IMG/VR virus record: IMGVR_UViG_3300021197_000710
Location: 1 to 27,563 of that record
Source: a virus
Direction: 5' to 3' (one strand)
DNA: 27,563 nucleotides
Shown one piece after another: positions 21,419-25,632 of this stretch. A program made the position numbers and the translations under genes. Numbering within the stretch: position 1 is the first letter of the stretch; the number at the start of each line of letters is the position of its first letter. Under the pieces are notes generated by a model. It worked only from the letters and a program-made list of their open reading frames with translations, had not been told where the DNA came from and searched no databases.

Positions 21419-21535
21419 ATGGAAATAATAATACAAATAGTTCTTATTCTAGGAATATCATACACTGGATTGACACTTTATTTTCAACATAGGTGGGATA
21501 AGAAACACAAAGAATTCAAAAATAAATTGAAATGA
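21419..21535 (+). CDS. 38-residue membrane peptide
   Basis: A hydrophobic helix (IIIQIVLILGISYTGLTLYF) then a basic tail (QHRWDKKHKEFKNKLK). The leader AAGTAGATATG repeats the one used by the PLP gene at 23832, and the stop overlaps the next ATG by 4 nt (ATGA). Function unknown. Its coupled position between two conserved genes is the main support for it being real. Confidence 0.55.
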   Translation: MEIIIQIVLILGISYTGLTLYFQHRWDKKHKEFKNKLK

Positions 21536-21858
21536 ATATATTAGAAAAAGCAAACGAGATCATAAACGATAGAAAAGAAGAGAAGGAGAGAATGTACGGT
21601 CCTTTCGAATCAGGTATGGATCGAGCAGCACAAATAGCCAAAGGAATGACTGGTAAAGACTTCACCGCTGAGGATGTATACGCATGTATGGTTGCGCTTA
21701 AACTATCACGACATAGTTATCACTACAAAGAAGATAATTTATTAGACGCGGTAGCTTACATTGGATCACTTAATAACTATATAAACAATAAAGGAAATGG
21801 AAAAGAAGAAACTAGGAATTGTGGGTGTGCTGAGCAATCCTGCAAAAAGAGACACTAG
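21532..21858 (+). CDS. DUF6378-like phage protein
   Basis: 108 residues. The arrangement 'EKANEIINDRKEEKERMYGPFESGMDRAAQIAKGMTGKDFTAEDVYACMVALKLSRHSYHYKEDNLLDAVAYIG' matches the DUF6378 pattern as I recall it: an 'R...YG' turn, a helical middle and a 'lKl.R......DN..Da.aYi' ending. This family often lies near phage nucleotide-metabolism genes and has an all-helical MazG-like look. It overlaps the next gene by 62 nt in another frame, the longest overlap here. The Cys-rich tail (CGCAEQSCKK) comes from this overlap and may be dispensable. Confidence 0.7.
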   Translation: MNILEKANEIINDRKEEKERMYGPFESGMDRAAQIAKGMTGKDFTAEDVYACMVALKLSRHSYHYKEDNLLDAVAYIGSLNNYINNKGNGKEETRNCGCAEQSCKKRH

Positions 21859-22768
21859 TCACAACGGAGGTTGGACTTATGTACTAAAAGCAATTACTGA
21901 ACATTGGGGCAGAGATGTTTCGGTAATGACAGAAAAAGATGATTGGAATAACTGCGATGAGTTATTGTTGAATGAAGGAGTTAATTACAAGGAAGGAGTT
22001 TATAATTTATTCGGAGGAGTTAATGAATCGCTACTAACAAGACTTGCTAAGCTTAACGAATTCAAAGGAGAGATATTCTGCTTAGGAGAACACATTGACT
22101 ACGTAGATCTTTGTGAAAAGAGAGACATAGACTTTAAGTTCACTAAAGAGATAACTTATTTAGATCCGAAATACCTAGGAAACAAATTGGTGTATGGAGA
22201 TTCTCATTCCATTTCAGTATTTAAACCAGGATTAGCAATTAGCAGAAACGACGGAGCAACACTTCATGGAATGCTAGAAACAGGACTGAGAAAACTAATC
22301 CCATCAGGACTCAAAGAATTAACTTTCTACGCTGGTAACATTGATGTAAGACATCACTTGTGTAGATATTGGACAGAAGGCACGTCGTCTGAATTCATAA
22401 AACCAATGATAGATAAACTAGAACAACAGTTGTTAGATCTAGAAATCGATCAAATCAACCTAGTATGTCTATTACCAATAGAGAACGAAAGCAGAAAGAT
22501 ACCAGGAACAGGAATGTACAAAGGAACACCGTACTATGGATCGTTCGCTAAAAGATCAGAACTAGTGAGTGCATTCAACTCAATGATTTTCCACATTTGT
22601 TACAAGAACAATTGGACACCACTATCTTGGCCTTGTGGATTTAAGAATAACGAAGGAGAGCTTAGATTTGAAGTAATGGAAGCGAGGCAATCTGTACACT
22701 TAGCTCCTAAGAGTTATATGTTCGCAGACGAATTACTATTTAGAAAACAACTTAACCTCTTCGAATAA
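21797..22768 (+). CDS. SGNH/GDSL hydrolase-like protein with Rossmann-like N-terminus
   Basis: 323 residues. The N-terminal ~115 residues (KLGIVGVLSNPAKRDTSHNGG, CDELLLNEGVNYKEGVYNLFGG) look like an alpha/beta sugar- or nucleotide-binding domain. From about 132 the SGNH blocks follow: GDSHS (134-138), a Gly in the 'DGATLHGM' turn, GNIDVRHH (180-187, the GxND block) and His301 in SVHLAP (the DxxH block, with the Asp replaced). Such enzymes hydrolyse or transfer acyl or phosphate esters. The start of MEKKK at 21797 is the only good ATG. It ends on the start of the next gene (TAATG). Inside a base-modification-like operon it may trim or transfer a group on the modified base; this is inference. 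Confidence 0.6.
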   Translation: MEKKKLGIVGVLSNPAKRDTSHNGGWTYVLKAITEHWGRDVSVMTEKDDWNNCDELLLNEGVNYKEGVYNLFGGVNESLLTRLAKLNEFKGEIFCLGEHIDYVDLCEKRDIDFKFTKEITYLDPKYLGNKLVYGDSHSISVFKPGLAISRNDGATLHGMLETGLRKLIPSGLKELTFYAGNIDVRHHLCRYWTEGTSSEFIKPMIDKLEQQLLDLEIDQINLVCLLPIENESRKIPGTGMYKGTPYYGSFAKRSELVSAFNSMIFHICYKNNWTPLSWPCGFKNNEGELRFEVMEARQSVHLAPKSYMFADELLFRKQLNLFE

Positions 22769-23829
22769 TGAAACAATACGGAAAACTATTAGTAGACGAA
22801 GATATATTAGAAGGACTAGACGACTATCACGTGAAATCTAGAATCGTCCAAGAGTATCACTTCGAAGGAAACCCTAAACGAATGAAGGACAAAGAGTTCA
22901 AATCACTTATTGATGACGATCTTATCTACAACGTTCCTATCTATGACGTCTTGCATAGGAGATATGCAGCTTTTAGTTCTTTAGTAGAAGCATTATGGTA
23001 TGGAGAACAAGATCCTAAAGGCAATGGAGAATACTTCCCAAAGTTTGAGAGATATGACTTAGATGTGATAGAATGGATGTATCTGTTTTATACGTTTAGA
23101 CTATGTGGATCTGGGATAAACTATAAGCCCAAAAAATCTGAAGGCTTTTCACCGTTTGGCACTCATGGCTTTGGCAACTTTTGGATAATAGATGACATAA
23201 GATTAGGTAGATTAGGAATTGAAAACTGGGAAGATTCGTTACAAGACAGGAATAGACCTTTTACAAACAACAAAGGCTATTTGCTACCTCAATTCTCATT
23301 CCCTCATTTAAAGAATAGCCATCTAAAGTATTTCATATTGAGGTGGTCTAAAAGATTCATAGATGATTTGTTTAGATTCATTTCAAGAAATCCAGGATTG
23401 TCGATCTATGAAATAACAGACTATGGAAACGATTGGCTAATGGATAAAGGATTTAAGAGACAGAACTTTGTTATGACAGCATTCGCTATGGACATGGCAG
23501 AATATTTCCCTCATTTGGTAAACAAAGAAAGCAAGGTGTATGCAGGTACTAATGCAACTAAATGCATTAAGCAGATATTTAGAAAGGTCGGTAAGATGAG
23601 CGAGTTTGATTTTATCAATGAAGCTTTACAATTCTTAGCAGATAGATATGGTGCAAACCCCTATGACGTAGAGGACTCTAGAGCATGCGATCCTATTAGA
23701 TACTTTCAAGAATATCAAAGTGCGGACCACGTGGCTAAGAACAACGGAATACGGTATAAGAATAACTCTATCTTAAAAGAGAAATGGGGATTAGATAAGT
23801 ATTATGAGTGGGCAAACAATTTAAAGTAG
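22768..23829 (+). CDS. helical glycosylase/pyrophosphorylase-like protein (possible base-hypermodification enzyme)
   Basis: 353 residues, mainly helical. Conserved-looking motifs are FYTFRLCGSGINYK (107-120), HGFGNFW (133-139), 'QNFVMTAFAMDMAEYFPHLV' (232-251), VYAGTNATKCIKQIF (257-271) and 'VEDSRACDP' (301-309). The RxxGSGxxY and HGxxN motifs in an all-helical frame recall the DNA-glycosylase-related families reported with phage thymine hypermodification (the putrescinyl-thymine pyrophosphorylase-type and hmdU-kinase-associated helical domains). I am not certain of the exact family. Coupling to the PLP and hydroxymethylase genes supports that reading. Confidence 0.45.
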   Translation: MKQYGKLLVDEDILEGLDDYHVKSRIVQEYHFEGNPKRMKDKEFKSLIDDDLIYNVPIYDVLHRRYAAFSSLVEALWYGEQDPKGNGEYFPKFERYDLDVIEWMYLFYTFRLCGSGINYKPKKSEGFSPFGTHGFGNFWIIDDIRLGRLGIENWEDSLQDRNRPFTNNKGYLLPQFSFPHLKNSHLKYFILRWSKRFIDDLFRFISRNPGLSIYEITDYGNDWLMDKGFKRQNFVMTAFAMDMAEYFPHLVNKESKVYAGTNATKCIKQIFRKVGKMSEFDFINEALQFLADRYGANPYDVEDSRACDPIRYFQEYQSADHVAKNNGIRYKNNSILKEKWGLDKYYEWANNLK

Positions 23830-23831
23830 AT

Positions 23832-24707
23832 ATGGCACACAATAAACATATAGTAGATGGACAGAATAGAGAACTCAATTTAGTTTATCCAAATAGAGAA
23901 TCTTATTTAGATCTTACTAAAGATTTTGTAAGTAAGCTTCCACCTATAGAGATAAGAAAGCATGAGGGAATCACTGTAGTAAGAGAAGATCTTGTATTAA
24001 AGGGTGGAACGAAGACTAGAGCAGCAGAGTTCTTGTTTAGTCAAATCAAAGAAGACACAGTTGTATACGTTGCTCCTAGAGTTGGGTTAGCACCTTGCGC
24101 GATTATGGAATTAGCTAAGTTGTATGACAAAAAGGTGATACTCTTTATGCCAGCGTGCAAAGAAATAAGTGAACACCAAGCATACGTAATTAGTGAAGGA
24201 GCAGAAGCAAGATTTGCTAGAATAGCAGCAATGCCCAATTTAAATAAAATAGCTAAAGATTATGCCGATAAGAACGGCTACAAGTTTCTTCCTTTTGGAT
24301 TAGCACATCCGTATGTGATAGCAGGATTTGTTAGAATATGTGAAACACTATTAGAACAATACAAAATGCCAGAGGAGATATGGACCGTTGTGTCTACAGG
24401 AGTATTGACTAGAGGTTTACAAATAGGATTTGAAGAAACTAATATGAAAGGTGTCTGCGTAGCTAGAAATATGAAGCAAGGAGAACTAGGTAGGACAGAG
24501 ATCTTATCAGAGCCTTTAGCATTTACACAATTAGAAAAACAATTACCTCCTTTCAATACAGTTAAAAGCTATGACGCGAAAGCATGGAAGTACATACCTA
24601 AAAACACAGGAAGAGACATTTGGTTTTGGAATGTAGCAGGAGAACTCGAAGCTCCTAAATACTTCGACAAATCAACGATAGATAGTTACAGAGAATGGGG
24701 ACAATAG
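23832..24707 (+). CDS. PLP-dependent enzyme, fold type II (TrpB / ACC deaminase-like)
   Basis: 291 residues from the ATG at 23832; an in-frame ATG at 23808 overlaps the previous gene. Residues 50-75 (VVREDLVLKGGTKTRAAEFL) match the 'RDDL...GGNKxRKLE' segment that carries the PLP lysine in ACC deaminase-type enzymes, here Lys61. VYVAPRVGLAPCAIMELAKLYDKK and the phosphate-binding STGVLTRGLQIG (about 188-199) complete the fold-type-II picture. The reaction (beta-replacement, elimination or amino-acid transfer) cannot be told. The stop overlaps the hydroxymethylase start by 13 nt. In this setting it may supply or attach an amino-acid-derived group to a hydroxymethyl base. Confidence 0.72.
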   Translation: MAHNKHIVDGQNRELNLVYPNRESYLDLTKDFVSKLPPIEIRKHEGITVVREDLVLKGGTKTRAAEFLFSQIKEDTVVYVAPRVGLAPCAIMELAKLYDKKVILFMPACKEISEHQAYVISEGAEARFARIAAMPNLNKIAKDYADKNGYKFLPFGLAHPYVIAGFVRICETLLEQYKMPEEIWTVVSTGVLTRGLQIGFEETNMKGVCVARNMKQGELGRTEILSEPLAFTQLEKQLPPFNTVKSYDAKAWKYIPKNTGRDIWFWNVAGELEAPKYFDKSTIDSYREWGQ

Positions 24708-25342
24708 AATTTGAAAATGCTACTAGAGCTTTCGAGCACTACATGAGAATGATTATGACTTTAGGTCACAAATTTGCTGATACAAAAACATTATTCAATG
24801 TTGGCTTTCTAATTAAGAATCCAACGGACAACATAATCACTACTGACTATAGAAAGTTTAGTACTAAATATGCTGAAAGAGAATGGGATTGGTATATGTC
24901 TGGAAATAGGAACGCAGAGAAGATATCGTTGTACGCACCTATATGGGCAAATCACATGGATGAAGATGGAAACGTCAATAGCAACTATGGTTGGCAATGG
25001 AAACGTGAAAACCAATTAGAATATGTAGTAGAGCAATTAAGATCTAATAAGGAAACGAGACAAGCAGTGGTAAGTATCTATGATGCTAAAGAACACTCAG
25101 AATACAAATACGATACTCCTTGCACACTTTCAATTCATTTTCAAGTACTTCATGACAAACTTAACATGACGGTAAACATGAGGTCTAACGATCTTTGGTA
25201 TGGTTTTTGCAATGACCAATATCAATTTAGTAACCTATTGCAAATGGTGGCTGAGATGGTAGACTTAGACGTAGGAACCTATTATCACTTTGCATCAAAT
25301 TTACATTTATACAACAAAACAATTAAAGAACAGAAACTATGA
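24695..25342 (+). CDS. deoxynucleotide hydroxymethylase, thymidylate synthase family (dCMP-type active site)
   Basis: 215 residues. Thymidylate synthase landmarks are EREWDWY (Glu63), 'NVNSNYGWQW' (94-102), ETRQAVVSIYD, catalytic Cys143 in DTPCTLS, NMRSND (161-166) and 'HLY' (204-206). The segment NMRSNDLWYGFCND puts Asp174 where thymidylate synthase has the Asn that selects dUMP. T4 dCMP hydroxymethylase has Asp at this place and a similar 'NMRSND...GF.ND'. This suggests 5-hydroxymethyl-dCMP as the product, although hydroxymethyl-dUMP is not excluded. The protein lacks the last ~30-40 residues of the usual C-terminus. It is coupled to the PLP enzyme upstream and MazG downstream. Confidence 0.82.
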   Translation: MGTIEFENATRAFEHYMRMIMTLGHKFADTKTLFNVGFLIKNPTDNIITTDYRKFSTKYAEREWDWYMSGNRNAEKISLYAPIWANHMDEDGNVNSNYGWQWKRENQLEYVVEQLRSNKETRQAVVSIYDAKEHSEYKYDTPCTLSIHFQVLHDKLNMTVNMRSNDLWYGFCNDQYQFSNLLQMVAEMVDLDVGTYYHFASNLHLYNKTIKEQKL

Positions 25343-25632
25343 GAAGATTCGAACTAATTAGAGAATGGGCAGACGAAAAAGGTATCTACGAAAAAGGAGA
25401 TCCTAAGACTCAAACGTTAAAGCTTGTAGAAGAAGCTGGAGAACTAGCTAAGGCTATTCTTAACGACGATCAAGATGAGGTAATAGATGCAATAGGTGAT
25501 TGTGTCGTGGTTCTAACCAACCTAGCCCATTTACGTGGGATAACCATTGAGAGTTGTATTGACGAAGCTTATAGCGTAATAGCTAAGCGAAAAGGAAAGA
25601 TGATTAACGGAACATTTGTAAAACAAGAATAG
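25339..25632 (+). CDS. mazG: MazG-like nucleotide pyrophosphohydrolase
   Basis: 97 residues. The EExxE (Glu31, Glu32, Glu35) and ExxD (Glu47-Asp50, then Asp54) metal-binding motifs of the MazG fold are present in 'KLVEEAGELAKAI' and 'DEVIDAIGD'. The enzyme converts NTPs or dNTPs to monophosphates plus pyrophosphate. It starts 4 nt before the hydroxymethylase stop (ATGA), which fits a role in removing the canonical dNTP or producing dNMP substrate. A role in countering the host (p)ppGpp response is the other common idea. Confidence 0.88.
   Translation: MRRFELIREWADEKGIYEKGDPKTQTLKLVEEAGELAKAILNDDQDEVIDAIGDCVVVLTNLAHLRGITIESCIDEAYSVIAKRKGKMINGTFVKQE

Follow-up and report, generated by a model that had tools for sequence, protein, structure and literature searches.

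The gene at positions 24695-25342 of the window (the whole stretch of viral DNA analyzed, 27,563 nt) very probably encodes a dCMP-type hydroxymethylase with putative activity on dCMP, judging from its conserved residues, and it lies in a run of overlapping genes on the same strand (21532-25632). The main explanation, which we consider likely, is that a dCMP hydroxymethylase is combined with a co-operonic decoration of 5hmC by amino acid transfer. The first-pass annotation missed the operon around the gene, the part of greatest interest. The genes of the run are as follows:

21532..21858, + strand, DUF6378 protein, opening the overlapping run (PF19905, E=3.9e-13)
21797..22768, + strand, SGNH/GDSL-hydrolase-like protein, 323 aa (phrog_13881; GDSHS, GNID and SVH motifs)
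22768..23829, + strand, 353-aa protein, called X353 (amino acid:DNA transferase / 5-hmdU DNA kinase superfamily by predicted fold)
23808..24707, + strand, PLP-dependent (PALP) enzyme, 299 aa (PALP, E=1.5e-8)
24695..25342, + strand, putative dCMP-type hydroxymethylase of the thymidylate synthase (TS) family, 215 aa (PF00303, E=2.4e-28)
25339..25632, + strand, MazG-like nucleotide pyrophosphohydrolase (PF03819, E=1.3e-8)

The conservation of this gene set was analyzed in 102 viral loci carrying the 353-aa gene, among which an SGNH gene was present in 97, a PLP gene in 99 and a hydroxymethylase gene in 87. The SGNH and PLP genes nearly always stood on either side of the 353-aa gene; the three were encoded on one strand and mostly touched each other, and the hydroxymethylase genes lay on that strand too. 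Nearly all absences of cassette genes corresponded to contig ends, and in the 15 loci (of 102) without a hydroxymethylase gene the contig ended no more than 3.5 kb downstream of the 353-aa gene. The spacing between the 353-aa and hydroxymethylase genes varied, with MazG, DUF6378, dUTPase or dCMP deaminase genes intervening; the dCMP deaminase and dUTPase genes of some cassettes could serve either base, which counts against the main explanation. Homologs of MazG, which possibly hydrolyzes dCTP, were found in the loci of 75 of 80 relatives, and DUF6378 homologs in 40 of the 80. A gene of cluster c4, with a GroEL chaperonin-like start, adjoined the cassette upstream of the SGNH gene in 31 loci (e.g., L171:4594-6216). 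The terminase matched those of phages of many hosts, at below 50%.

Amino acids are reportedly put on 5-hmdU in thymidine hypermodification and then trimmed by PLP enzymes. The PLP enzyme of the window was assigned to phrog_7093 (E=7.6e-36), the family of gp052 of Pseudomonas phage M6 (gp052 itself, E=2e-159), and a profile–profile comparison with the gp052 family gave E=1.3e-10. The M6 amino acid:DNA transferase (PF18724) is gp051 and its PLP enzyme is gp052, the two genes adjoining each other, and gp055 carries a 5-hmdU DNA kinase domain. The DNA of M6 contains 5-(2-aminoethyl)deoxyuridine and that of ViI contains 5-(2-aminoethoxy)methyldeoxyuridine (PMC6449724). A PLP-like stretch was also observed inside a large ORF annotated as a DNA methyltransferase in Erythrobacter phage ZS04 (L104:2326-4764), with similar cases in R6L and Mae-JY30.

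The 353-aa protein had no match in Pfam or PHROG, and no homolog of it was found among the bacterial and archaeal genomes scanned or in any isolate phage record. Its AlphaFold2 model was fairly confident (pLDDT 81). When this model was compared with BFVD, the best match was A0A6J5L8T5, named amino acid:DNA transferase (E=3.9e-14, TM 0.74, 22% identity), followed by A0A6J5LCY1, with the same name (1.3e-4), and the SP10 5-hmdU DNA kinase (5e-3). Comparison with the PDB gave modest matches (Z about 6.5-8) to a queuine salvage enzyme and to AGOG DNA glycosylases, and a Foldseek search against the PDB returned nothing significant. One relative of X353 weakly matched HMUDK_hel by sequence, and PF18724 gave no match in X353 of the window, in 23 family members or in 25 contigs. 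No signal was obtained in profile–profile comparisons with the families of M6 gp051 (ADDT) and gp055 (HMUDK), a weak test because these two known families barely found each other (E=0.015). Through its predicted fold, the 353-aa protein was read as a putative new clade of the amino acid:DNA transferase / 5-hmdU DNA kinase superfamily.

The motifs of the SGNH protein (GDSHS-like, GNID and SVH) were invariant, and its AF2 model (pLDDT 88) matched GDSL/SGNH hydrolases and esterases of the PDB at E about 4e-5. One locus (L129:6876-9017) contained a single 713-aa ORF in which the SGNH and 353-aa proteins were fused, and this fusion accounts for an apparent profile match between the two proteins. 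In Aeromonas phage 44RR2.8t (L233:4950-7337; NC_005135 160422-162809), whose gp42 is Asp-type, a 795-aa protein combined an SGNH domain related to that of the window with a C-terminal half weakly matching the helical domain of 5-hmdU DNA kinase (HMUDK_hel). These two fusions hint that the SGNH protein works with the transferase/kinase superfamily on hydroxymethylcytosine.

Other genes neighboring the relatives were also inspected. A gene of ~570 aa beside many of them was considered as a 5hmC carbamoyltransferase and rejected, as Pfam identified it as a Toprim/DnaB primase-helicase; the gene of ~254-267 aa found in its slot is a SAM methyltransferase. In other relatives (L029:4997-5800, L032:1062-1826, L050:5235-5999 and L059:1716-2519), the place of the cassette between the DUF6378 and hydroxymethylase genes was taken by a SAM methyltransferase-like gene, which may represent an alternative modification of 5hmC.

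It is reasonably probable that the cassette uses 5hmC, and the chance that it transfers an amino acid appears to be about even or slightly better. A less probable but substantial alternative is that the dCMP hydroxymethylase is real, with the 353-aa, PLP and SGNH proteins modifying 5hmC, or some other base, without adding an amino acid. This would fit the lack of a sequence-level match between the 353-aa protein and the amino acid:DNA transferase family, the usual action of SGNH enzymes on esters, and the finding that no 5-hmdU DNA kinase (PF18723) matched above the cut-off in 25 contigs, which are possibly fragments. It is opposed by the top named structural matches of the 353-aa protein, which come from the thymine-hypermodification superfamily, and by the membership of the PLP enzyme in the M6 gp052 family, M6 having its transferase and PLP genes likewise adjacent.

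The base acted on by the hydroxymethylase was assessed from alignments. MilA (CMP 5-hydroxymethylase), TS and T4 dCMP hydroxymethylase were among the top solved-structure matches of the protein, and its key residues were Glu63, Ser96-Asn97-Tyr98, Arg122, Asp140, Cys143, Ser164, Asp166, Asp174, His204 and Tyr206. The segment R163-S164-N-D166-L-W-Y-G170-F-C-N-D174 aligned with RSCDVFLGLPFN177 of E. coli TS (EcTS) and RSNDVVFGFRND179 of T4 gp42; the first-pass annotation had placed Asp174 at the selecting position that is Asn in TS and Asp in the T4 enzyme, and the alignments confirm this, the position being Asn177 in E. coli TS and Asp179 in T4 gp42. The T4 catalytic residues Glu60 and Cys148 and the ribose-binding His216 and Tyr218 correspond to Glu63, Cys143, His204 and Tyr206. 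Previous work has described three marks of dCMP hydroxymethylases (PMC6400193), namely Asp179, the Ser94-x-Tyr96 motif and an acidic residue, Asp145, three positions ahead of the nucleophile, and all of these signatures were present. The residues typical of other members of the family were replaced: Asp174, Thr144 and a 9-residue tail were found in place of Asn177, His147 and the long folate-closing tail of TS, and Asp174 in place of the Asn of dUMP hydroxymethylases of the SPO1, ViI and M6 type. Ser164 and Arg122 were found instead of the Ala176 and Lys133 of MilA, which favor the ribonucleotide, and equivalents of Ser164 and Arg122 fit a deoxyribonucleotide over a ribonucleotide (PMC5175136).

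In environmental phages, positions 177 (Asp) and 147 were the most associated with modified cytosine (PMC8670742); the protein of the window has Asp at position 177 and Thr at position 147. Thr occupied position 147 (149 in T4 numbering) in 111 relatives and Asn in 31; this position does not separate cytosine- and uracil-types within the clade, so the base call rests on 177. At this position Asp was found in 142 of 142 full-length viral relatives, which indicates that Asp174 is not a chance occurrence. As the relatives are not independent of each other, some loci coming from the same contig, these counts describe a pattern and are not a probability. Every full-length hydroxymethylase read among the 102 loci with the 353-aa gene was Asp-type, as were the divergent hydroxymethylases adjoining the cassette in L116 and L165.

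As an internal control, the 4 Asn copies in the relative set were canonical TS genes located in the same contigs. The enzymes of SPO1, ViI, CBA120, M6 and phiW-14, which are uracil/thymine-modifying phages, all carried Asn. In a further control set of 39 viral loci encoding a protein related to the M6 amino acid:DNA transferase, 29 of the 29 readable TS-family enzymes had Asn, and the loop around it contained one extra residue; Asn or Asp was read straight from the motif, since the longer uracil-type loop moved the MAFFT column by one. A quick maximum-likelihood tree separated the Asp-types (support 81), the Asn-type hydroxymethylases (support 98) and TS onto different sides, with T4 gp42 as a long branch. 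No uracil-type hydroxymethylase was found among the copies read in 25 long contigs of cassette phages (up to 183 kb), in which the extra copies were canonical TS.

A dUMP hydroxymethylase feeding thymine hypermodification, with Asp tolerated, is therefore improbable according to these comparisons: the partner genes do resemble thymine-hypermodification enzymes, but every uracil-type enzyme examined had Asn and the longer loop, and the protein of the window lay on a separate side of the tree from the Asn-types. In addition, the D179N substitution in T4 gp42 lowered kcat with dCMP by ~3600-fold, and Asn/Asp swaps shifted base preference (PMC6400193, PMC8670742). The earlier suggestion of cytosine specificity is thus well supported at the sequence level by the selecting Asp, the other published signatures and the Asn of the uracil-type controls. 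The clean split between Asp and Asn also allows the base modified by a phage to be called from the sequence by a simple rule.

Canonical thymidylate synthase (Asn177) was also observed in the cassette phages L139, L140, L160, L170, L184, L185 and L186. Bacteroides phage BF503P4 carried another Asp-type copy of the TS family (L001:5163-5924), highly divergent and with Glu60 unaligned, near its first copy and a dUTPase.

The signature for hydroxylation was found as Asp140-T-P-Cys143 together with Ser96-Asn-Tyr98. That the enzyme is a dCMP methylase yielding 5-methyl-dCMP would be in line with a TS that makes this product after a change of Asn to Asp (a result cited in PMC8670742); it is a poor prospect, as the Asp140 and Ser-Asn-Tyr equivalents required for hydroxylation by T4 gp42 are conserved and the TS tail is absent.

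The protein ends soon after the conserved HLY, as had been noted earlier: 9 residues follow Tyr206, vs. 28 after Tyr218 of T4 gp42 and 55 after Tyr209 of EcTS. The stop codon shares a 4-base ATGA overlap with the start of the downstream MazG gene, and all of the 80 closest viral-contig relatives stop 4-18 residues past HxY; the stop is therefore genuine and the short C-terminus is a trait of the clade. The T4 enzyme itself is devoid of the folate-sealing TS tail and binds folate by other residues, notably Arg177 (PMC6400193). The description of the protein as a "reduced version" accordingly held for the short tail but not for a reduction particular to this enzyme, the tail being clade-wide and the T4 enzyme already lacking that of TS; the tail is an extreme of a trait already known from T4 gp42. 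Arg177, the folate-tail binder that replaces the absent C-terminus in T4, corresponds to Cys172 here (Cys in 135 relatives as well), which counts against the main explanation. An inactive, truncated TS relic, to which the short C-terminus might point, is hardly credible, because catalytic residues and length are kept across the clade and the gene sits in a tightly overlapping operon.

For the favored combination of a dCMP hydroxymethylase with amino acid decoration of 5hmC, the following pathway is proposed, its hydroxymethylase steps being modeled by analogy on T4 gp42 and the conserved residues. Cys143 would attack C6 of dCMP, Asp174 would read and protonate the cytosine N3, and Glu63 would help to activate methylene-tetrahydrofolate, after which Asp140 and the Ser-Asn-Tyr motif would activate water and the exocyclic methylene would become a hydroxymethyl group. 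The 5-hydroxymethyl-dCMP would be phosphorylated and then incorporated into phage DNA, where the 353-aa protein may put an amino acid (or a similar nucleophile) on the hydroxymethyl carbon. The PLP enzyme could then reshape the attached amino acid; decarboxylation, which has been proposed for M6, is one example. An activation or an acyl-transfer/hydrolysis step may fall to the SGNH protein. MazG would provide dCMP and reduce the level of dCTP, and the modification would presumably shield the DNA from host nucleases. More tentatively, the loci may represent a widespread phage system of amino-acid-derived cytosine hypermodification, in which an Asp-type enzyme is followed by a new transferase-like clade, no recognizable DNA kinase takes part, and the PLP and SGNH proteins finish the product. 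No description of amino-acid-type cytosine hypermodification was found in the literature at the level of titles and abstracts.

The hydroxymethylase alone is an ordinary addition to a known kind of enzyme. It shares with T4 gp42 (EC 2.1.2.8) the fold family, the equivalents of Asp179, Asp145, Ser94-Asn-Tyr96, Cys148, Glu60 and Trp82, and the absence of a folate-sealing TS tail, but the two are only ~23% identical, the tail in the window is 19 residues shorter, T4 Arg177 is replaced by Cys172, and the partner genes are different, no cassette gene being annotated as a glucosyltransferase. The closest isolate homolog (52% identity) is the "deoxycytidylate 5-hydroxymethyltransferase" of Bacteroides fragilis phage BF503P4 and its relatives (OP172672), which is also Asp-type with a short tail, although the isolate phage records yielded no homolog of the 353-aa protein. 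In environmental phages, the 5hmC carbamoyltransferase system (MetaGPA, PMC8670742) similarly pairs an Asp177-type enzyme of the TS family with genes for dCMP deaminase and PRA-PH/MazG-type proteins, whereas neither the cassette genes nor the alternative neighbors scanned included a carbamoyltransferase. The thymine pathway of M6 (and Salmonella phage ViI) resembles the cassette in having a hydroxymethylase (in M6) and transferase and PLP genes next to each other (gp051-gp052), the PLP enzyme of the window belonging to the gp052 family and the 353-aa protein having a predicted transferase/kinase fold. It differs in that the hydroxymethylase of the window is Asp-type, an SGNH protein is added, the 353-aa protein forms a separate clade, and no 5-hmdU DNA kinase was found over the cut-off (25 contigs, possibly fragments). 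The groups known to decorate 5hmC are sugars and carbamoyl, and to our knowledge amino-acid-based hypermodifications are known only on thymine. The gene set is conserved and undescribed, and it resembles the thymine-decorating pathways of phages transposed to cytosine; if this is true, such a modification of cytosine would represent a new class of DNA base, supply new DNA-modifying enzymes and test whether the transferase requires a separate kinase.
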